Positions 63-33,366 of a stretch of DNA of 33,366 bases are shown in pieces; position 1 is the first letter of the stretch, and each line of letters begins with the position of its first letter. The notes below the pieces were generated by a model. That model saw only the letters and a program-made list of their open reading frames with translations. It was not told the DNA's origin and ran no database searches. The stretch spans positions 1-33,366 of the forward strand of contig JAKSCL010000313.1 in NCBI GenBank assembly GCA_022360615.1. The letters run 5' to 3'. Made by a program: the position numbers and the translations under genes. Source of the DNA: Hyphomicrobiales bacterium (GTDB taxonomy: Bacteria; Pseudomonadota; Alphaproteobacteria; Rhizobiales; JAKSCL01).

Positions 63-842
63 TTAAGCAGCCTTGTTGGACCGCGTTTTCGCTTTTGCCG
101 CCGGAGCCGTCCCAGGCTCCGGCGTTTTTTCTGGGAACCGGCATATTTCGGTAATCGGACAACGCCAGCATTCGGGTTTGCGCGCCTTGCAGATATACCG
201 GCCATGCAGGATGAGCCAATGGTGAGCGTGGCGCTTGAAATCATCCGGTACGATGCGTTCAAGCATCAATTCGACCTGGAGCACGTCTTTACCAGGTGCG
301 AGCCCCGTGCGGTTGGAGACACGGAAGATATGCGTATCGACAGCAATCGTCTCATGGCCGAATGCGATATTCAGAACGACATTGGCCGTTTTGCGGCCCA
401 CCCCCGGCAGCGTTTCCAGAACTTCACGATCTTCCGGCACCCTTGAACCGAACTCCTCCATCAGTGTTTGCGAGAGCGCGATCACGTTCTTGGCCTTGTT
501 CCGGTAAAGGCCGATGGTTTTGATGTGGTCGCGCACTTTGTCTTCGCCGAGCGCCACCATCTTTTCGGGCGTGTCGGCAATGGCAAAAAGCGCCCTTGTG
601 GCCTTGTTTACTCCCACATCGGTTGCCTGGGCCGACAAAACGACAGCCACAAGCAGGGTATAAGGATTGATGTACTCCAACTCACCCTGCGGTTCGGGAT
701 TGATGGCGGAGAGGCGGGCAAAAAGCGCTTGGATCTCTTGCTTGGTCAAACGGCTGCGGGGAAGGCGTTTTTTCGGCGTCCGCATCTTTGCCCCCTGCGG
801 CGGATCGCCTTTTCCTTTCGCCGTCGTCTGTTCCTTCGCCAT
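63..842 (-). CDS. nth: endonuclease III (DNA glycosylase/AP lyase)
   Basis: Base-excision-repair enzyme that removes oxidised pyrimidines and cleaves the abasic site by beta-elimination. Counting from the chosen start (259 residues), the helix-hairpin-helix LPGVGRKTA carries the catalytic lysine at about 151, and the VDTHIFR segment supplies the conserved aspartate at about 169. The C-terminal iron-sulphur cluster has the canonical C-x6-C-x2-C-x5-C spacing at about residues 218-234. The frame is open to 893, but that would overlap the divergent DUF2244 start at 865. The ATG at 842 (or 845 just before it) is therefore preferred, although its ribosome-binding site is weak. The N-terminal 30 residues are basic and low in complexity, as in many rhizobial homologues, and the C-terminal tail is rich in Lys/Ala/Pro. 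The family assignment is firm; the exact start is less so. Confidence 0.95.
   Translation of the reverse strand: MAKEQTTAKGKGDPPQGAKMRTPKKRLPRSRLTKQEIQALFARLSAINPEPQGELEYINPYTLLVAVVLSAQATDVGVNKATRALFAIADTPEKMVALGEDKVRDHIKTIGLYRNKAKNVIALSQTLMEEFGSRVPEDREVLETLPGVGRKTANVVLNIAFGHETIAVDTHIFRVSNRTGLAPGKDVLQVELMLERIVPDDFKRHAHHWLILHGRYICKARKPECWRCPITEICRFPEKTPEPGTAPAAKAKTRSNKAA
100..130 (+). terminator. terminator-like hairpin inside the 3' end of nth
   Basis: A perfect 9-bp inverted repeat (GCCGGAGCC and GGCTCCGGC, 6-base loop) is followed at once by G and six T on the plus strand, the classic form of an intrinsic terminator. It lies inside the last codons of nth and reads in the opposite direction. 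It could stop a plus-strand transcript entering from the left of the window. It may instead be an accident of a GC-rich coding sequence. Confidence 0.45.
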
Positions 843-864
843 CATCTGTCTATAATTCAGCGGC

Positions 865-1359
865 ATGACGACAGAAACAGCCGACGGCCACAATCAACAG
901 CCCTTTTTCTCCGCGACGCTAATGCCCCACCGTTCACTTGGGCGGCGAGGGTTTCTCATTGTGATGTCGCTTGTTGCGGGTGTGAGCTTCGTCGCCGGTC
1001 TCGCTTTCCTGGCGATCGGCGCTTGGCCTGTGTTCGGCTTTTTCGGGCTCGACATTCTCCTCATTTTTCTTGCTTTCCGCATGAGCTACCGCTCCGCGCG
1101 TGCCTATGAAACGGTGGAGCTGTCCAAGGACGCGCTCGTGATCCGCCGCGTTTCGGAACGCGGCGATGTCACCGAAGTGCGCATGAACCCATATTGGGCA
1201 CGCTTTCACATGGACTGCGATGAAGATGTGGTCACGGGTCTGCGTGTCGCCGCCGAAGGGCGCACGATAGCGGTCGGTTCCTTCCTTCCGCCCTGCGAAA
1301 AGCGGGATTTCGGCCGCGCCTTCGGAAAAGCGCTCAAGAGCGTATCGGTTTTCGCTTAA
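865..1359 (+). CDS. DUF2244 integral membrane protein
   Basis: A 164-residue protein of the DUF2244 family, common beside nth or cytochrome-oxidase genes in alphaproteobacteria; its biochemical role is unknown. Two closely spaced hydrophobic helices lie at about residues 28-75 ([20 protein letters not shown], then a Trp/Phe/Leu-rich segment). They are followed by a soluble domain with the family's [12 protein letters not shown] region and a C-terminal [18 protein letters not shown] segment. The gene diverges from nth. A TATAAT at 851-856 lies only nine bases before the ATG and there is no clear Shine-Dalgarno, so a leaderless or near-leaderless transcript is possible. Its stop overlaps the convergent gpmA stop by a few bases. 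Confidence 0.85.
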
Positions 1360-1994
1360 GGCGCGGTGGCAGCTAAAACGGCCAGGTCTTCTTTCGAAGC
1401 TATACCGCCATCCTCGGCCAGCCGGTAGATGATCGGCACGCCGGTCGCCAGTTCCCGTTTGAGGATTTCCTCGCCCGACAGGCCTTCAAGGTCCATGATG
1501 AGCGCGCGCAGCGAATTGCCGTGAGCCGAAACAAGCACCCGCTCGCCGTTCAGAACGCGCGGCAGGATATGCGCGCGGTAATAGGGCAGGACCCGGTCAG
1601 CGGTATCTTTCAGACTTTCGCCGCCGGGCGGCGGAACATCGAAGGAACGGCGCCAGATGTGAACCTGCTCATCACCCCATTTCTTGCGCGCACCGTCCTT
1701 GTTCAGCCCGGTGAGGTCGCCGTAATCGCGCTCATTCAGCGCCTGATCCCGGACGATGTCCAGACCGCTCTGATCAAGCTCCTTGAGCATCAGATCGAGC
1801 GTGCGTTGGGCACGGATCAAATCCGAGGTAAAGGCGATATCGAAGCGGAGTTTCAGATCGTTCAGGGATTTGCCGGCGGTGATTGCCTCCGCCACGCCTT
1901 TTTCGGTGAGATCGACGTCTTTCCAGCCGGTGAAAAGGTTCTTTTTGTTCCACTCGCTTTGGCCGTGCCGGACAAGGACGAGAAGGCGCTCCAT
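1356..1994 (-). CDS. gpmA: 2,3-bisphosphoglycerate-dependent phosphoglycerate mutase
   Basis: Glycolytic/gluconeogenic enzyme interconverting 3- and 2-phosphoglycerate through a phosphohistidine. The N-terminus reads [18 protein letters not shown], with the phosphorylated histidine at residue 10. The acid/base region [15 protein letters not shown], the [11 protein letters not shown] substrate segment and the second catalytic histidine in [11 protein letters not shown] are all present. At 212 residues it matches the shorter alphaproteobacterial form of the family, which lacks part of the C-terminal extension of the E. coli enzyme. It lies 78 bases downstream of dapB on the same strand, a pairing frequent in rhizobial genomes, so cotranscription is likely. 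Confidence 0.95.
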
Positions 1995-4947: not shown

Positions 4948-6020
4948 CAGCTCCGTCTCCCCGTTGCCAGGAGCCAAAGAAAAACGGGTGCGCCGACGAA
5001 GGCCGTCAGGATGCCGAGCGGTGTCTCAATCTCGGCGATCGTGCGGGCGAGCGTATCGACGGCGAGGAGATAGCCCGCACCCATGAGCATTGCCGCCGGT
5101 AGGAGGCGGTTGAAATTGGGGCCGACGATCAGCCGGGCGATGTGCGGCATCACGAGACCGACCCAGCCGATGACGCCCGAAATCGAGACGACAGCTGCGG
5201 TCATTAGCGTCGCGCAGGCCACAAAGAGAATGCGCAAACGGCGCGGATCGATGCCAAGGGCAGCCGCTTCCTCATCGCCAAGCGCCATCAGGTTCATGCG
5301 CCAACGCAACAAGACGAGCGGAATTAGTCCGATCAAGACGGCGGGAATCGTGGTCCAGAGTTCGTCGGGCTTCACGCTCGCCAAGCTTCCCAGCAGCCAG
5401 AAGGTGATGGCCGGAAGCTGATCGTAGGGATCGGCCAGCACTTTGATGAGCGAGATGGTGGCGCCCGCAAGCGCGCCAAGCACGACGCCTGCAAGCACGA
5501 GCACAAGCGTCGGCTCATGCCCGCGCACGGCGGTCGCTACCATATAGACCAGCGCCACCGTCGCCATGCCGGTAACAAAGGCAAGGCCCTGAATGGCGAT
5601 AACGGGAAGCGAGAGAAAAATGCCGAGCGTCGCGCCAAGCCCGGCGCCGGTCGAGACACCTAGAATATCCGGCGAAACGAGCGGATTGCGGAAAAGTCCT
5701 TGATAAACCGTCCCTGCCGCTGCGAGGGCCGCACCCACCAGAAGCGCCGCGAGCACCCGTGGGATGCGTACCGAGAAAAGCACTGTATCGACTTGCGCGT
5801 GGGAAGGGTCCTGCGCGCCGGTAATGAGGCGGACGAGAGCGCTCAGGATTTCAGAAAGAGTTACGGGAAATGGGCCGATGGTAATTGCGGCCAAAGTGCC
5901 GGCAAGCACGGCCAAACCCATCGCGAAAAGAGCAGTGGCCCAGCTTGTTCCATCCCTGTTCCTGGCAGGCCTGTTGCTTACGTCCGTGATTCGTTCGGCG
6001 TCCGTTCGCCGCGCGTCCAT
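4944..6020 (-). CDS. ABC transporter permease, FecCD/BtuC family
   Basis: Inner-membrane permease of a metal-chelate type importer, 358 residues with about ten hydrophobic segments. The diagnostic region RIPRVLAALLVGAALAAAG followed by VYQGLFRNPLVSPDILGVS is the conserved FecCD core. Near the C-terminus GVIGWVGLVMPHIARLIVG contains the coupling-helix region that contacts the ATPase. It begins ten bases after the binding-protein gene and overlaps the ATPase start by four bases, so the three genes form one operon. The hydrophilic N-terminal 25 residues (many Arg/Asp) are longer than usual, and a later start is possible. Only one permease gene is present, so the channel should be a homodimer. 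Confidence 0.94.
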   Translation of the reverse strand: MDARRTDAERITDVSNRPARNRDGTSWATALFAMGLAVLAGTLAAITIGPFPVTLSEILSALVRLITGAQDPSHAQVDTVLFSVRIPRVLAALLVGAALAAAGTVYQGLFRNPLVSPDILGVSTGAGLGATLGIFLSLPVIAIQGLAFVTGMATVALVYMVATAVRGHEPTLVLVLAGVVLGALAGATISLIKVLADPYDQLPAITFWLLGSLASVKPDELWTTIPAVLIGLIPLVLLRWRMNLMALGDEEAAALGIDPRRLRILFVACATLMTAAVVSISGVIGWVGLVMPHIARLIVGPNFNRLLPAAMLMGAGYLLAVDTLARTIAEIETPLGILTAFVGAPVFLWLLATGRRSW

Positions 6021-21912: not shown

Positions 21913-23007
21913 GTGAGACTATTTGTAACAGGCGCGAGCGGATTTCTGGGTGGCTACTTCCTCCGCGATCTTATCCGCGATCCATCAAGCGAGATTTATG
22001 GTCTTATTCGCACCAGAAACGGAAACACGCTGGAAGATCGTGCCCGCTCGCTTGGACTCCTCCATCCGCGCATTCATTTTTTTCCAGGTGACCTCACGGA
22101 TCAGTCGGCGATTGATGCAGTCGATGCCGGTCCAATCGACGAGTTCTGGCATCTGGCGAGCCTGACGGAATTTACCGAAGACCGCCGCAGCGACCTCGTG
22201 CGCTCCAATGTTCTCGGCACGAAAAACGCCCTCCAATTGGCCAAACGCCTGGGCGCGCGCAAGTTTTTCCATATCAGCACCGCCTACGTTTCGGGGGTCT
22301 ATGACGACGGCCCTGTTCCGGAAGACGGTGTCTTGCCCTCACCGGAATTCCGCAATCCCTATGAGGAGACGAAACACGAAGCGGAAAAACTGGTTCATGA
22401 ATCGGGCCTTCCATACATCATTATCCGCCCAAGCACGGTCATTGGACATTCGCAAACGGGCGAAGTCGACAGCGACAAGATGATGTATGGGCTGATCAAG
22501 GCCTATCACACGGCGGATCGCCTCCGGCGCCGTCCGAACCGGAAAAGCAAAGACGCGGACGGGCCGCAGATGCTTTTCATGAATGCCGATCCCGGCGTTT
22601 CGTTGAATGCCATCTGCGTTGACGATGTGATCCGCGCCATGCAGGCCATACGCGAGCGGGGCGAACTGTCCAAGACCTATCATTGCACGCATTATCAGCC
22701 TGTGATCATCGGACGTTTGCACGATGAGGTCATGCGCTGCCTCGACATCAAGAATTTGACCATGACCTTGGACAGGCCGGCGACCCACCCGAAGACCGGG
22801 CTGCAAGCCGTTCTCGATCGTGCGTCCCGCGTTTACGAAGAATACATCACGGCCCATGATCCGGTGTTTGGACGTAACAATATCGACAAGCTGCTGAAGC
22901 CGAGCGAACAGCCCCGGCCTTTGTCGAAGGAAGTCTTGGCGCGTTGCATCACCTGGTATGCCAAAAATCGCCTTCGGGCCCGCCAGCCGGCTGCCGAAGC
23001 CGTCTAA
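21913..23007 (+). CDS. extended SDR, fatty-acyl-reductase-like (NAD_binding_4)
   Basis: A 364-residue extended short-chain dehydrogenase starting with GTG. The Rossmann motif VTGASGFLGGYFLRDL is at 5-20, the active-site STAYVSG at 122-128, and YEETKHEAE gives the catalytic Tyr150 and Lys154. The pattern DEFWHLASLTEFTEDRRSDL and IRPSTVIGHSQTGEV fits the NAD_binding_4 ('male sterility') group, which includes fatty acyl-CoA reductases of the FAR type, carboxylic acid reductase terminal domains and related enzymes. It heads a tight operon with acyltransferase, AGPS-like and SDR genes, so a role in making the fatty alcohol for ether-lipid synthesis is proposed. It is shorter than animal FAR (no sterile C-terminal domain), and the substrate is inferred. 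Confidence 0.82.
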   Translation: MRLFVTGASGFLGGYFLRDLIRDPSSEIYGLIRTRNGNTLEDRARSLGLLHPRIHFFPGDLTDQSAIDAVDAGPIDEFWHLASLTEFTEDRRSDLVRSNVLGTKNALQLAKRLGARKFFHISTAYVSGVYDDGPVPEDGVLPSPEFRNPYEETKHEAEKLVHESGLPYIIIRPSTVIGHSQTGEVDSDKMMYGLIKAYHTADRLRRRPNRKSKDADGPQMLFMNADPGVSLNAICVDDVIRAMQAIRERGELSKTYHCTHYQPVIIGRLHDEVMRCLDIKNLTMTLDRPATHPKTGLQAVLDRASRVYEEYITAHDPVFGRNNIDKLLKPSEQPRPLSKEVLARCITWYAKNRLRARQPAAEAV

Positions 23008-23008
23008 A

Positions 23009-23779
23009 ATGCCGGACGCGACACAAAAACCAGGCGCCCCGCAAACAACGTCGTTCGGCGACGCCGCGACGCATGGCGTGCTGTCGGTGTTCTTCGGCAC
23101 CTATTGCCGGCTGACGGCGCGCGGCATCGACCATATCCCCGACGGCCCCGTGCTGTTTTGCTCAAACCATTCAAGCCATTTGGACGGTCCAGCGCTTTTG
23201 ACGTCCTCGAAGCGGCGCTGCAGCCATATGGTCATCATCGTGGCCCGCGATTACTTCGTTGAAGGCAGCCCGATGGCCCGCGCTTGGTCGAGTATGGTGA
23301 ATGTGCTTCCGCTTGACCGCAGGGACCCCGCCAACTCCTTCCGCCATGTCATCAAGCAGGCTAGGCGCTGGACCGATGCGGGTGCCAGCCTCATCGCCTT
23401 TCCAGAAGGCACGCGTGCCCGCGATGGCCGCTACACCGGCGAAGTCAAACCGGGCGCTGCGCTATTGTCGGTTGCGCTCGGCATCCCTATCGTTCCGGCT
23501 TACATTGCCGGCGCCCATCAATGTCTTCCTCCCGGCCGGATGATGGCAATGCCTGGCCGTATTCATGTCGCTTACGGTCCGCCGATCGACCCGGCAGAGA
23601 TAAGCAGCCGGTATAATGGAAGCAAAGTTCTAAGGACGGAGATATCCGACCGTCTGGCCGAGGCAATCAGAGACTTGGAGGCGGAGATCCATGGCAGTGG
23701 CAGGAGTACAGAACCGCGGCCCAATCTTCCACAAACTGGCCGGGTGGGGACCAGAGTCGGCCAAGGGCTTCGACCCTGA
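23009..23779 (+). CDS. PlsC-type glycerolipid acyltransferase
   Basis: Acyltransferase of the PlsC/LPAAT superfamily, 256 residues from the ATG one base after the preceding stop. Block I NHSSHLD (residues 53-59) is the catalytic HX4D. A block II arginine lies in VLPLDRRDPANS, block III is FPEGTRARDG at 131-140, and block IV IVPAYIAG follows. Such enzymes acylate glycerol-3-phosphate, lysophosphatidate or, in the GNPAT branch, dihydroxyacetone phosphate. Followed directly by an AGPS-like gene, acylation of DHAP is attractive but unproved. The last 30 residues, rich in Pro/Gly/Arg, are encoded in the 89 bases that overlap the next gene and are probably not part of the fold. Confidence 0.87.
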   Translation: MPDATQKPGAPQTTSFGDAATHGVLSVFFGTYCRLTARGIDHIPDGPVLFCSNHSSHLDGPALLTSSKRRCSHMVIIVARDYFVEGSPMARAWSSMVNVLPLDRRDPANSFRHVIKQARRWTDAGASLIAFPEGTRARDGRYTGEVKPGAALLSVALGIPIVPAYIAGAHQCLPPGRMMAMPGRIHVAYGPPIDPAEISSRYNGSKVLRTEISDRLAEAIRDLEAEIHGSGRSTEPRPNLPQTGRVGTRVGQGLRP

Positions 23780-25427
23780 GAAACGCCCCTTTATCTGGCC
23801 GTTTTTGAAGAAAGAACTGGGGCTGACGGAGGATCCGAAGGTCGTACCTCCGGTCCCCATGGATGAGATCAGCCCGCCGCCGCAAAAGAATTGGGGCGCG
23901 TTCAGGGACAGCCTTGGAAGCAGCCTGAGATCCGACCAAGTCCAGGACGACAAGCTTGCCAGGCTTCTTCATGCCCACGGTAAGAGTTTTCGGGACCTCT
24001 GGAAAGCCCGCCGCGGGCGTTTCGATGCCGTGCCGGATGTGGTCGTTTTTCCCGAAAGCGAAAACGAGGTGGCCGCCATCGTCGATGCCGCCGCGAAAAC
24101 CGGTACCGTTCTCATTCCCTTCGGTGGAGGGACTAATGTGGCGGGCTGTCTCGATACGCCCTTGGGCGAAGCCCGTCCGGTCGCCGTGGTCAATCTCACC
24201 CGGCTGAATCGTGTCTTCCATATCGATCCCGAATCGCGGCTGGTCCGTTGTGAGGCCGGCATTTATGGCCCGGCGCTCGAGGAAGCCCTTGGCGAAGTGG
24301 GAATGACGCTCGGCCATTTCCCGGATTCGTTTCTGTATTCGACCGTTGGCGGCTGGGTCGCCACCCGGTCTTCGGGGATGCTCAGCGACGGTTACGGCAA
24401 TCTGGAGGACATGGTCGTCGGTCTTCACCTGGTCACGGCGAGAGGCGTGATGCGGGCCCGCCCGGTCCCGAAATCGGCGGCCGGTATCAACCTCAACCAT
24501 CTGTGCTGCGGCAGCGAGGGGACGCTCGGCATCATCACTGAAGTGACGTTGCGTATCAGGCCCGCGCCCGTGAAGCGTGTTTACAGAGGCACGCTCTTTC
24601 CCGATTTCTCCTCCGGCATCAGGGCGATCAAGTCCGTCGTCGACAGCGGTGAAGTCCCTGTGATGATGCGTCTCAACGACCCATTCAAGACGGCGCTGTC
24701 CTTTGCCTTTAAGGAAAAGCCGGACGGCGTGAAGAAACTGGCGGCTGACATCATGAAAGCGGGCATCAACCGCTTCACCAATGTCGATACCTCCAATTGC
24801 TGTTTGATGCTCACCGGCTACGAGGGCGACAAGGCCGATATCCGGCGCCAGACGCGGCGTGTGAACCGCCTTCTCGGAAAAGCAGGCGGCGTCGACATCG
24901 GCACGGGTGTGAGCGCCAGTTTCGATAAGTCGAAATTCGATTTCCCGCACTTGCGGGATTTCGCCATGGACCGCGGTCTTGTTGGTGACATCAGCGAAAC
25001 GGCGACCCACTGGGGTAATGTTGAGAACCTCTACGAAAAATGCCGGGAAGCGCTTTTCTCGGCTGGAGAACGGATCGGCAAGCGGATGGTCGCCGGATGC
25101 CATGTGAGCCATAGCTACGACACTGGATGCAGCCTTTATTTCACCTTCGGCTGGGCAGAAGACGCCGAACGCGGTTTTGAAGACTATTTGGAAATCAAAT
25201 CGGCCTTGCAGTCGGCTTTTGTCGAGCATGGCGGCACGCTTTCGCATCACCATGCGGTGGGAACCGATCACCTGCCCTGGCTGATGGAGGATGTCTCACC
25301 CGTCGGCGTTGAGGCCATGCGCGCGCTGAAGGCGGGGCTTGATGCAGAAAGGATCATGAACCCAGGCAAGCTCGATCCGGTCGACGATCAAATCGCGGTC
25401 TGGCGTCAGTTTCCGAAAGCCAGTTAG
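23691..25427 (+). CDS. alkylglycerone-phosphate synthase (AGPS)-like FAD enzyme
   Basis: A 578-residue flavoprotein of the VAO/PCMH superfamily (FAD_binding_4 then FAD-oxidase_C) with a strong resemblance to eukaryotic AGPS, which swaps the acyl chain of acyl-DHAP for a fatty alcohol to form the ether bond. FAD-site motifs are IPFGGGTNVAG (142-152), PDSFLYSTVGGWVATRSSG (211-229) and GSEGTLGIITEVTLRIRP (274-291). The C-terminal active-site strands include HVSHSYDTGCSLYFTFGW (471-488), carrying a Tyr where AGPS has its catalytic one, and GGTLSHHHAVGTDHLPWL (514-531), whose three consecutive His match AGPS. The N-terminal WGPESAKGFDPEKRP is the AGPS entry (W-G), not seen in D-lactate or glycolate oxidases. 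GGCGGAG precedes the ATG, supporting this start despite overlap. Confidence 0.9.
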   Translation: MAVAGVQNRGPIFHKLAGWGPESAKGFDPEKRPFIWPFLKKELGLTEDPKVVPPVPMDEISPPPQKNWGAFRDSLGSSLRSDQVQDDKLARLLHAHGKSFRDLWKARRGRFDAVPDVVVFPESENEVAAIVDAAAKTGTVLIPFGGGTNVAGCLDTPLGEARPVAVVNLTRLNRVFHIDPESRLVRCEAGIYGPALEEALGEVGMTLGHFPDSFLYSTVGGWVATRSSGMLSDGYGNLEDMVVGLHLVTARGVMRARPVPKSAAGINLNHLCCGSEGTLGIITEVTLRIRPAPVKRVYRGTLFPDFSSGIRAIKSVVDSGEVPVMMRLNDPFKTALSFAFKEKPDGVKKLAADIMKAGINRFTNVDTSNCCLMLTGYEGDKADIRRQTRRVNRLLGKAGGVDIGTGVSASFDKSKFDFPHLRDFAMDRGLVGDISETATHWGNVENLYEKCREALFSAGERIGKRMVAGCHVSHSYDTGCSLYFTFGWAEDAERGFEDYLEIKSALQSAFVEHGGTLSHHHAVGTDHLPWLMEDVSPVGVEAMRALKAGLDAERIMNPGKLDPVDDQIAVWRQFPKAS

Positions 25428-25433
25428 ACGGCT

Positions 25434-26237
25434 ATGCCGCGCAACTGGTCGCAATCGGTTGTCTGGATCACCGGAGCGTCGTCGGGCATTGGTGAACAGC
25501 TTGCCATTGGGCTTGCGCCAAGCGTTGCAGGCCTTGCCCTTTCGGGCCGGCACACCGAGGCGCTCGATACGGTTACAGCGAAATGCAGGGCGCTGTCCAA
25601 GCTGAACAGCGATGCGATAAGAGCCGTTCCGTTCGATATCGCGAGAACGGAAACCATAGAGAATATCGTCCGGAACGTGACTGCGCCGTTCGGGCGGATC
25701 GACGTTTTGGTCCTTTGCGCCGGGGTAAGCCAGCGCGCCCCCGCGGCTAAAACCAGCCGGGGAACGCTCGAAACGATCATGGCGACCAATTTCTTCGGTC
25801 CCGTGGAACTCGCCCGCCAGGTCTTGCCCCATATGCCGGAGACGGGAACGATTGCAGTCGTCACCAGCCCGTTCGGCAAGTTCGGCTATCCGGACCGCTC
25901 GGCTTACGCTGCGTCCAAACATGCGCTCCATGGCTATTTCGAAAGCCTTGAACTGGAGATGGCGAAAAGCGGTGGGCCGAAGATACTCTATTTTCTTCCC
26001 GGTTACGTGCGCACAAACATCGACCGCAATGCACTGACCGGGGATGGCCGGACCCTTGCGCGAACGGAAGAGCGCCACAAAAAAGCAGCGGAGCCCGGCC
26101 CTGTCGCTGAGGCGCTGAAGAAAGCGATCGAAACCGGGGTCCGGCAAGCCAGTACGGGCATTGTCGAAACGGGGGCGCTTGTTCTCAACCGGCTCTGTCC
26201 ATCATTGCTCCGCTCAATTCTGAAGCGGCGCGGATAA
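25434..26237 (+). CDS. classical SDR, candidate acyl/alkyl-DHAP reductase
   Basis: A 267-residue short-chain dehydrogenase. Cofactor motif WITGASSGIGEQ is at 11-22, with an Arg at position 39 after the second strand suggesting NADPH. NLxAG is replaced by LCAGVSQRAP. The active site comprises Ser145 in VVTSPFGKFGYPDRS, Tyr158 and Lys162 in YAASKHALHGYFESLELEM. PGYVRTNI follows. The GKFG-x-P-x-R-x-AYAASKHA context is characteristic of the DHRS7/DHRS7B group, and DHRS7B (PexRAP) reduces acyl/alkyl-DHAP in peroxisomes. It begins six bases after the AGPS-like stop and closes the operon. The role is inferred from motif and neighbours; generic SDR activity is the alternative. Confidence 0.85.
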   Translation: MPRNWSQSVVWITGASSGIGEQLAIGLAPSVAGLALSGRHTEALDTVTAKCRALSKLNSDAIRAVPFDIARTETIENIVRNVTAPFGRIDVLVLCAGVSQRAPAAKTSRGTLETIMATNFFGPVELARQVLPHMPETGTIAVVTSPFGKFGYPDRSAYAASKHALHGYFESLELEMAKSGGPKILYFLPGYVRTNIDRNALTGDGRTLARTEERHKKAAEPGPVAEALKKAIETGVRQASTGIVETGALVLNRLCPSLLRSILKRRG

Positions 26238-26453: not shown

Positions 26454-27062
26454 ATGTCCGAAACCATTGAGCGCTCCGGTGATTTCGGTTCAAGCAACCG
26501 TGAAGGTGGGACCACCCTGAAATTCAAGGGCGCGTAGCGCGCAACCGGTCTTACAAACCAGAAGGCGCTTGATACCGCGACGCTCGACAATATGCGCGAT
26601 GCGGTTATGAGCCTTGATCCGCAAGGGATTGTCACGGCCGTCACCCCGGCTTTTGAGGCGATCTTCGACGTCACGGCATCCGAACTTGTCGGCCGCTCCT
26701 TTGCGGAGACGATGATCGAACATCCCGAGCTTGAGGCGTTCAACGACACGGTTTTCGATGCCGTTACGGACCCAAGCAACACAGCGACGCATGACATCGT
26801 CGTTAAACGCGGCGGAGAACGTCGTTATCTCTCCGTCCGGACAAACCTCTTGAGAATGCCGGACACGAGCGCCAGGCACGGCCTGATCGCCGCAATTGTG
26901 TTCTCAGCGTTTCATGCGGCCTGGGGCTTCACGCTCGTCCTATTCACCTTCGTGCCGAGCTTCCTCTTCGGTTGGATGTATAACCGGCACGGAACGCTGA
27001 TCGGCGTGTCGATCCTCCATTTTCTATTGGGCACCGTGATTTTTGTCCTCGGCCTGAATTGA
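26454..27062 (+). pseudogene. broken PAS-domain gene fused to a CPBP/Abi membrane-protein tail
   Basis: An ATG at 26454 opens a frame (MSETIERSGDFGSSNREGG) interrupted by TAG at 26535-26537. The same frame then continues through 26592 as a clear PAS domain (MRDAVMSLDPQGIVTAVTPA, VTASELVGRSF, KRGGERRYLSVRTNLLRMPD), about 100 residues. At about 26865 it switches abruptly to a membrane segment ending AFHAAWGFT...SFLFGWMYNRHG...SILHFLLG, which resembles the C-terminal motifs of CPBP (CAAX-like) intramembrane proteases. The first catalytic Glu-Glu motif of CPBP is missing. Nonsense codon plus abrupt junction suggest deletion fused two unrelated genes. A short functional protein from the ATG at 26592 cannot be excluded. 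Confidence 0.7.
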
Positions 27063-32779: not shown

Positions 32780-33000
32780 TGCGTAGTGGCGGAGAGGCGA
32801 GGACAAGGTCCGAACCGGACGCCAAGCGCCCAAGCGGGCGCCGGCCGGTCAGGCCGCGCCCGCGGAGCCAGCGAACGCAGTGAGTTTGGCGTGAGCGAAA
32901 CAATGGCGGGCCGTGCGAGATGAGAATGATGGGGTGGACGGCTTCTGCACCCCCGGCATTGGCGGTTCAAGGTGACCGTTGATGTCATTGGAGAGGAGGA
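32780..33000 (+). ncRNA. candidate IS110 bridge RNA in the non-coding left end
   Basis: In the IS110 group the region upstream of the transposase is known to encode a structured bridge RNA that guides target and donor recognition. Here a strong hairpin is visible: 32834-32846 pairs with 32852-32863 (twelve pairs, one bulged C, 5-base loop). The rest of the stretch is GC-rich and without an open frame of note. Guide loops were not identified, so the limits are approximate and the call rests on position and structure. Confidence 0.5.
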
Positions 33001-33008
33001 GCCACCTC

Positions 33009-33366
33009 ATGCAGATTTCCATTATCGGTCTTGATATCGCGAAGAACATGTTTCAGGCGCACGGTCTCGACGAGAAGGGAGAAGCGGTTCTTCGCCGCCG
33101 CATCCGGCGCGGCGACCTGCTGCGGTTCTTCTCAAGGCTCGATCCCTGCTTGATCGCCATGGAGGCATGCGCGACGGCGCACTATTGGGCGCGCGCACTC
33201 ACGGCGCTTGGACATGCGACGCGCTCAAGACCATTGCCGATCAGCTCGACAAGCTCGATCGTGTTTTGCGCGACATTGATCGACGCATTGTCCGCTGGTG
33301 TCGACAGAACGACGCCGCCCGTCGCCTCGCCACGATCCCGGGCGTCGGCCCGATCACGGCTTCGGC
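33009..33366 (+). pseudogene. IS110-family transposase, internally deleted fragment
   Basis: The N-terminus MQISIIGLDIAKNMFQAHGL with the first catalytic Asp of the RuvC-like DEDD domain is intact. It runs through FFSRLDPCLIAMEACATAHY (second acidic residue, Glu) to ALTALGH at about 33215. There the frame changes: from about 33218, two bases out of phase, the sequence reads LKTIADQLDKLDRVLRDIDR and then RLATIPGVGPITAS, the start of the C-terminal Transposase_20 domain. The rest of DEDD and the coiled-coil linker, well over 100 residues in normal members, are missing. A purine-rich GGAGAGGAGGAG precedes the ATG. The C-terminal catalytic Ser lies beyond the window. Confidence 0.85.

Follow-up and report, generated by a model that had tools for sequence, protein, structure and literature searches.

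A 33,366-nucleotide contig (JAKSCL010000313.1; hereafter, the window) from the alphaproteobacterial assembly GCA_022360615.1 of a Hyphomicrobiales bacterium carries, at positions 21913-26237, a compact four-gene operon that probably directs the synthesis of 1-O-alkyl-glycerol-3-phosphate (1-O-alkyl-G3P), the precursor of ether phospholipids; every substrate, like ether-lipid production itself, is a prediction from sequence. In the proposed pathway, an enzyme resembling fatty acyl-CoA reductase (FAR) would convert a long-chain acyl thioester to a fatty alcohol, and a PlsC-type acyltransferase would convert dihydroxyacetone phosphate (DHAP) to acyl-DHAP. A homologue of alkylglycerone-phosphate synthase (AGPS), with its oxidised flavin adenine dinucleotide (FAD) as an electrophilic scaffold, would then put the fatty alcohol in place of the acyl chain, yielding alkyl-DHAP. 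Finally, a short-chain reductase (SDR) would produce 1-O-alkyl-G3P, and ordinary phospholipid enzymes could complete the lipid. Homology supports the AGPS step well; the roles of the FAR-like, PlsC and SDR proteins are read from family and context. The observations established directly are the AGPS homology, the conservation of catalytic residues, the structure of the operon, the recurrence of the gene set, and the exchange of the reductase.

The operon and its AGPS homologue

The preliminary description of this DNA, made from its letters and open reading frames (ORFs), proposed a tight plus-strand set of four genes, and this is borne out by the ORF coordinates and Pfam matches, with successive junctions of +1, -89 and +6 bases. 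The first gene (21913-23007, GTG start, 364 aa) encodes the FAR-like extended SDR, a proposed acyl-CoA to fatty alcohol reductase that matches NAD_binding_4 (PF07993; 1.9e-35) and possesses a TGASGFLG motif and a Y150-x3-K154 pair, both residues of which are invariant in its alignment. The second (23009-23779, 256 aa) encodes the proposed acyl-CoA:DHAP acyltransferase (PF01553; 1.8e-18), in which the HX4D and EGTR motifs appear as NHSSHLD and FPEGTR. The third (23691-25427, 578 aa) encodes the AGPS homologue, a flavoprotein of the VAO/PCMH fold with FAD_binding_4 (2.3e-34) and FAD-oxidase_C (1.2e-37) domains. The last (25434-26237, 267 aa) encodes a classical SDR (adh_short, PF00106; 8.1e-41) and proposed alkyl-DHAP reductase, with a GASSGIG motif and its YxxxK site present as YAASK. 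The motifs originally cited, namely SHHH (residues 518-521), HVSHSYDTG and GWG (18-20) in the AGPS homologue and GKFG...YAASKHA in the SDR, are all present.

Sequence, tree and fold concur with the original placement of the FAD protein with AGPS rather than with lactate or glycolate oxidases. Against solved structures, it scores 378 bits with Dictyostelium ADPS and 281 with guinea pig AGPS, versus 117 with the nearest D-lactate dehydrogenase (D-LDH). In a Foldseek search with its predicted model (pLDDT, a local confidence score, 85.4; pTM, a global one, 0.87), the top 37 matches were all AGPS chains, with E-values from 6.6e-52 and query TM-scores up to 0.86, versus 3.2e-32 for D-LDH. In a maximum-likelihood tree of 38 proteins, a branch with 98/96 support unites the window's protein with eukaryotic AGPS and relatives from similar gene cassettes, although the eukaryotic branches are long and take no firm position inside this group. 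A quicker tree, using the GlcD/D-LDH-type paralogues of the same genome as outgroup, agrees, and these paralogues are indeed distant.

The residues known to matter for catalysis are also conserved. Mutagenesis of the Dictyostelium enzyme has shown R352, R447 and Y508 to be important (PMC3509576), and these correspond to R327 (codon at 24669-24671, plus strand; guinea pig R419), R422 (24954-24956; guinea pig R515) and Y483 (25137-25139; guinea pig Y578), the last being the proposed catalytic base; for Dictyostelium, a constant offset of 3 between published numbers and PDB chain positions was counted by hand in the alignment, and the guinea pig positions were mapped separately. The conserved His triplet, H519-H521 (25245-25253), matches guinea pig H615-H617.

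Related cassettes and two kinds of AGPS-like protein

The closest homologues of the AGPS protein (44-49% identical) belong to Verrucomicrobia, Calditrichota, KSB1, Planctomycetota and Acidobacteriota, together with one alphaproteobacterium, G629. At six loci (L018, L019, L020, L021, L024 and L027), from Verrucomicrobia, Planctomycetota, Calditrichota, KSB1 and one unassigned genome, a PF00368 protein taken to be FcrA, PlsC and AGPS are encoded in that order on one strand. An SDR gene follows AGPS in five of the six, the exception being L024, and the genes are separated by small gaps or overlaps, except for 205 bases ahead of the SDR in L019. A second PlsC gene follows the SDR in L018 and L027; its product might be suited to sn-2 acylation, an arrangement to be expected if DHAP is the substrate of the first PlsC. 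The PlsC-AGPS pair also occurs at three acidobacterial loci (L022, L023 and L025); these genomes, and that of the acidobacterial locus L031, lack a PF00368 gene and encode strong NAD_binding_4 proteins elsewhere. In Elusimicrobia (L026:7757-10756, minus strand), FAR (with its Sterile domain), PlsC and SDR are fused into a single protein of 999 aa that adjoins AGPS, and a second verrucomicrobial genome (L158) possesses a FAR (PF07993, 2e-60)-PlsC-HAD-AGPS cluster, its HAD gene having been named by eye. The preliminary description had suggested looking for the gene set in other genomes, and its recurrence across phyla, together with the triple fusion, strengthens the four-step reading. The gene set is no chance neighbourhood, because PlsC-AGPS recurs in distant phyla, usually preceded by an acyl-CoA reductase and often followed by an SDR.

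The cassette PF00368 proteins resemble 3-hydroxy-3-methylglutaryl-CoA (HMG-CoA) reductase and bear two marks of FcrA, Glu in place of Ser684 and Phe, a bulky residue, in place of Leu862 (both read by hand in the alignment, by a backward count from the catalytic Lys and His). According to a 2025 report, FcrA converts fatty acyl-CoA to fatty alcohol and has no action on HMG-CoA (PMC11948995). Each cassette gene is the sole PF00368 gene found in its genome (6/6). None was found in the window's genome, where the operon reductase is the only strong PF07993 gene. The NAD_binding_4 reductase thus occupies the FcrA slot in the window, and therefore the alcohol-making module appears to be exchangeable around a PlsC-AGPS core.

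The flanking enzymes are also linked to those of the cassettes. Against the cassette PlsC proteins of nine other genomes the operon PlsC scores 117-145 bits, and against paralogues in its own genome 42-57 bits. Its assignment as PlsC-type stands, and the parallel with animal GNPAT does not extend to family: PF01553 is its only Pfam domain, bacterial PlsC (5kym) its only solved match, and its NCBIfam matches are of PlsC type. Likewise, the operon SDR scores 90-123 bits against the SDRs that hold its position in five FcrA cassettes; in that search, most SDRs near other AGPS-like genes reached no more than about 56 bits. The SDR is retained with either FcrA or FAR, and the alkyl-DHAP step is therefore argued to be its job. 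A role as FAR's partner in alcohol formation was considered and not adopted, the SDR being kept where FcrA does the full reduction. In comparison with PexRAP/DHRS7, the enzyme is a classical SDR with the expected motif, but its PDB matches are unspecific SDRs and PexRAP itself is not assignable from sequence alone.

Two other FAR arrangements were seen in the course of these comparisons. In L159, plus strand, a FAR-like domain is fused to the C-terminal domain of phosphatidylglycerol lysyltransferase (704-2833), with a CarS-like gene (CDP-archaeol synthase family) downstream at 5454-6000; the same genome has an AGPS-like protein (L030). In an acidobacterial locus (L131:730-3126, plus strand), a HAD phosphatase domain is fused to FAR (NAD_binding_4 plus Sterile), with a second, overlapping NAD_binding_4 gene after it. 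No further close relatives emerged from order and phylum searches. Among viral contigs, 12 pattern matches yielded no confirmed relative, and plasmids offered only AGPS-like proteins of no more than 41% identity, with no FAR-like or whole-cassette match. Some of the plasmid proteins (H13-H17 and H21-H23; ~31% identity) come from Sphingopyxis macrogoltabida, Mycobacterium dioxanotrophicus and Xanthobacter dioxanivorans, names that point to polyether or cyclic-ether degradation and perhaps to a third, ether-catabolic use of AGPS.

A comparison of 80 neighbourhoods separates the cassettes from most other bacterial AGPS-like genes. The sample comprised the 10 nearest relatives, three loci on the cassette side of the tree with partial gene sets (L026, L028 and L029), and 67 others from mycobacteria, streptomycetes, alphaproteobacteria, Chloroflexi and more, including many actinobacterial near-relatives. 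PlsC is a neighbour at nine of the 10 nearest loci and FcrA at six, and neither GlpD nor a lipid kinase occurs at any of them; among the 67, a GlpD-type oxidase lies nearby at 55, a YegS-like lipid kinase at 52, and PlsC or FcrA at none. The PlsC linkage (9/10 vs 0/67) gives a Fisher p of 6e-11 that ignores relatedness and is not used as a probability; the split is given as a pattern because relatedness inflates significance tests. Residue 212 follows the same division. It is Asp in the window's protein (D212, codon at 24324-24326, plus strand; guinea pig D303) and in 17/17 proteins of the AGPS/cassette group, eukaryotes included, and Gln in 91/92 of the second set, the exception, L115, duplicating a gene already present in the first group as L102. 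In this sample, D212 versus Gln and the gene neighbours separate the two branches. Most other bacterial AGPS-like proteins probably have another function, and it is possible that the GlpD-linked group degrades ether lipids by AGPS chemistry run in reverse. The GlpD/lipid-kinase-linked, Gln-bearing loci number about 80 (L032-L097, L103-L114 and L116-L123).

Weighing the pathway

Several observations weigh against the four-step pathway, and its weakest link is the FAR assignment. The proposal of a FAR-like extended SDR holds as far as NAD_binding_4 and the motifs go, but the protein is only distant kin of characterised reductases. The C-terminal Sterile/FAR_C domain (PF03015) of animal FAR1 was absent in the Pfam search, and for this reason the protein is not classed as a FAR1 orthologue. 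No close relative was found among 385 genomes of the class, and the structural model, of low confidence (pLDDT 66.8), gives near-equal E-values for reductase domains and sugar epimerases. The substrate of the SDR is not predictable from sequence. The GlpD-linked branch likewise has R327, R422, Y483 and the His triplet, and catalytic-residue conservation by itself was therefore rejected as proof of synthesis. Finally, the AGPS of G629, the nearest alphaproteobacterial homologue (45% identical), has neither a PlsC nor an SDR neighbour, and its genome has no strong FAR or FcrA; it lies instead beside a divergent fatty acid desaturase gene (the pair at L115:1394-3211, plus strand, and 227-1978, minus strand). 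The contig ends right after the AGPS gene, so the missing downstream SDR is uninformative, but an AGPS without cassette partners is an exception that the pathway leaves unexplained.

One alternative, which we regard as unlikely, is that AGPS, PlsC and SDR make alkyl-G3P from alcohol that comes from elsewhere, the first gene encoding an epimerase-like protein or another thioester reductase rather than a fatty acyl-CoA reductase. The distant similarity just described, scores below the NCBIfam cut-offs, a fold search that does not separate reductases from epimerases, and relatives such as L031 in which FARs are encoded away from AGPS would all accord with this. The position of the gene argues otherwise, as it fills the slot held by FcrA in six genomes, and its own genome, in which FcrA is missing, has no other strong PF07993 gene; moreover, its best match by sequence among solved structures is the thioester-reductase domain of the myxalamid protein MxaA (4u7w; 2.9e-18), with epimerases ranked behind.

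Less probable still is a reverse use of the operon to dismantle scavenged ether lipids, whereby the SDR would oxidise alkyl-G3P to alkyl-DHAP, AGPS would release the fatty alcohol while forming acyl-DHAP or DHAP, and the extended SDR would oxidise the alcohol. In its favour, AGPS exchanges one chain for another without net redox change (PMC3509576), and its essential residues also occur in a branch with a GlpD-type oxidase and a YegS-like lipid kinase as gene neighbours, which suggest catabolism. Neither neighbour accompanies the 10 cassette-clade loci, however; AGPS is partnered there by an acyltransferase and, in relatives, by FcrA, a demonstrated acyl-CoA reductase, and the window's protein groups with the biosynthetic eukaryotic AGPS. 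That the FAD protein is simply an oxidase of D-lactate, glycolate or 2-hydroxyacids in an operon unrelated to lipids is scarcely credible and was rejected on bit scores, tree and Foldseek: the fold family is shared and the top NCBIfam model is GlcD, but at 142 of 568 bits this is far under the cut-off, AGPS outranks D-LDH by sequence and by fold, and the GlcD/D-LDH-type proteins of the same genome are distant outgroups. An extension of alkyl-ether synthesis to plasmalogens is not supported; the PF10520 desaturase (CarF/PEDS1) had no match in this 92.6% complete genome, in a search that matched in no control genome either.

The source genome is a 3.9-Mb draft in 418 contigs, with completeness of 92.6% and contamination of 4.7%. 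The contig fits its assigned genome, as judged from its GC content (0.599, vs 0.596-0.623 in five other stretches) and from a DUF2336 gene upstream of the operon with a 58% paralogue on another contig. A promoter scan gave a signal near chance level. Just downstream (26592-27062, plus strand), a short ORF encodes a PAS domain and the tail of a CAAX-protease-like domain and looks truncated or fused, and at 32979-33365 (plus strand) the start of an apparent IS110-type transposase, recognised by eye and without a Pfam match, is cut by the contig end.

Known systems and significance

An operon with the activities proposed here has been described in Myxococcus xanthus, where MXAN_1676-MXAN_1674 encode AGPS, a FAR-GNPAT fusion and a protein of the epimerase/dehydratase family; deletion of MXAN_1676 lowers ether lipids slightly, the AGPS contribution being minor (PMC9131029). 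Going by its description, the myxobacterial system differs in its fused FAR and acyltransferase and in its third protein, whereas the window has four separate genes, a PlsC-type enzyme, a classical SDR and an alphaproteobacterial host. The same four activities are proposed as in the eukaryotic FAR1-GNPAT-AGPS-PexRAP route, with AGPS on the same branch and bearing the same catalytic residues, but here the genes form an operon without an organelle, and the acyltransferase and reductases correspond by proposed activity. FcrA fills the first slot of the related cassettes and makes fatty alcohol, whereas the window's NAD_binding_4 reductase is unrelated to it; the FcrA report suggests a link to ether lipids and notes, in one bacterium, an AGPS gene at a distance of nine genes (PMC11948995). 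The myxobacterial ElbD/ElbB cluster combines FAR-like and PlsC-like domains for ether lipids, and elbB is HAD-like, as is the gene in L158, but the multidomain ElbD includes an acyl-CoA synthetase and an acyl-carrier domain and lacks AGPS (PMC9131029). PlsA/PlsR also serve bacterial ether-lipid synthesis, but they turn diacyl lipids directly into alkenyl lipids with no AGPS step (PMC9702350). Within the open-access literature searched, which was limited in coverage, no description was found of the tight FcrA-PlsC-AGPS operon, the triple fusion or the context split.

A broader proposal, which we consider possible but on balance doubtful, is that PlsC-AGPS-SDR is the fixed core of a modular, horizontally mobile bacterial operon whose alcohol maker is interchangeable (FcrA, NAD_binding_4 FAR or a fused FAR), that the eukaryotic peroxisomal pathway descends from this branch, and that a separate GlpD/lipid-kinase system, degrading ether lipids by the reverse reaction, accounts for most of the other bacterial “AGPS” proteins.

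The context split cautions against taking any AGPS-like match as a marker of ether lipids, since 67 of the 80 sampled loci lie outside the cassette context; a survey of the Black Sea, for example, used AGPS identity cut-offs from 30% (PMC11868695). If the proposed pathway is correct, self-contained operons for aerobic alkyl-ether synthesis from acyl-CoA would exist in several bacterial phyla beyond the myxobacteria, environmental alkyl ethers of unknown origin would gain named candidate producers, and a pathway whose loss causes human disease would have a bacterial counterpart.

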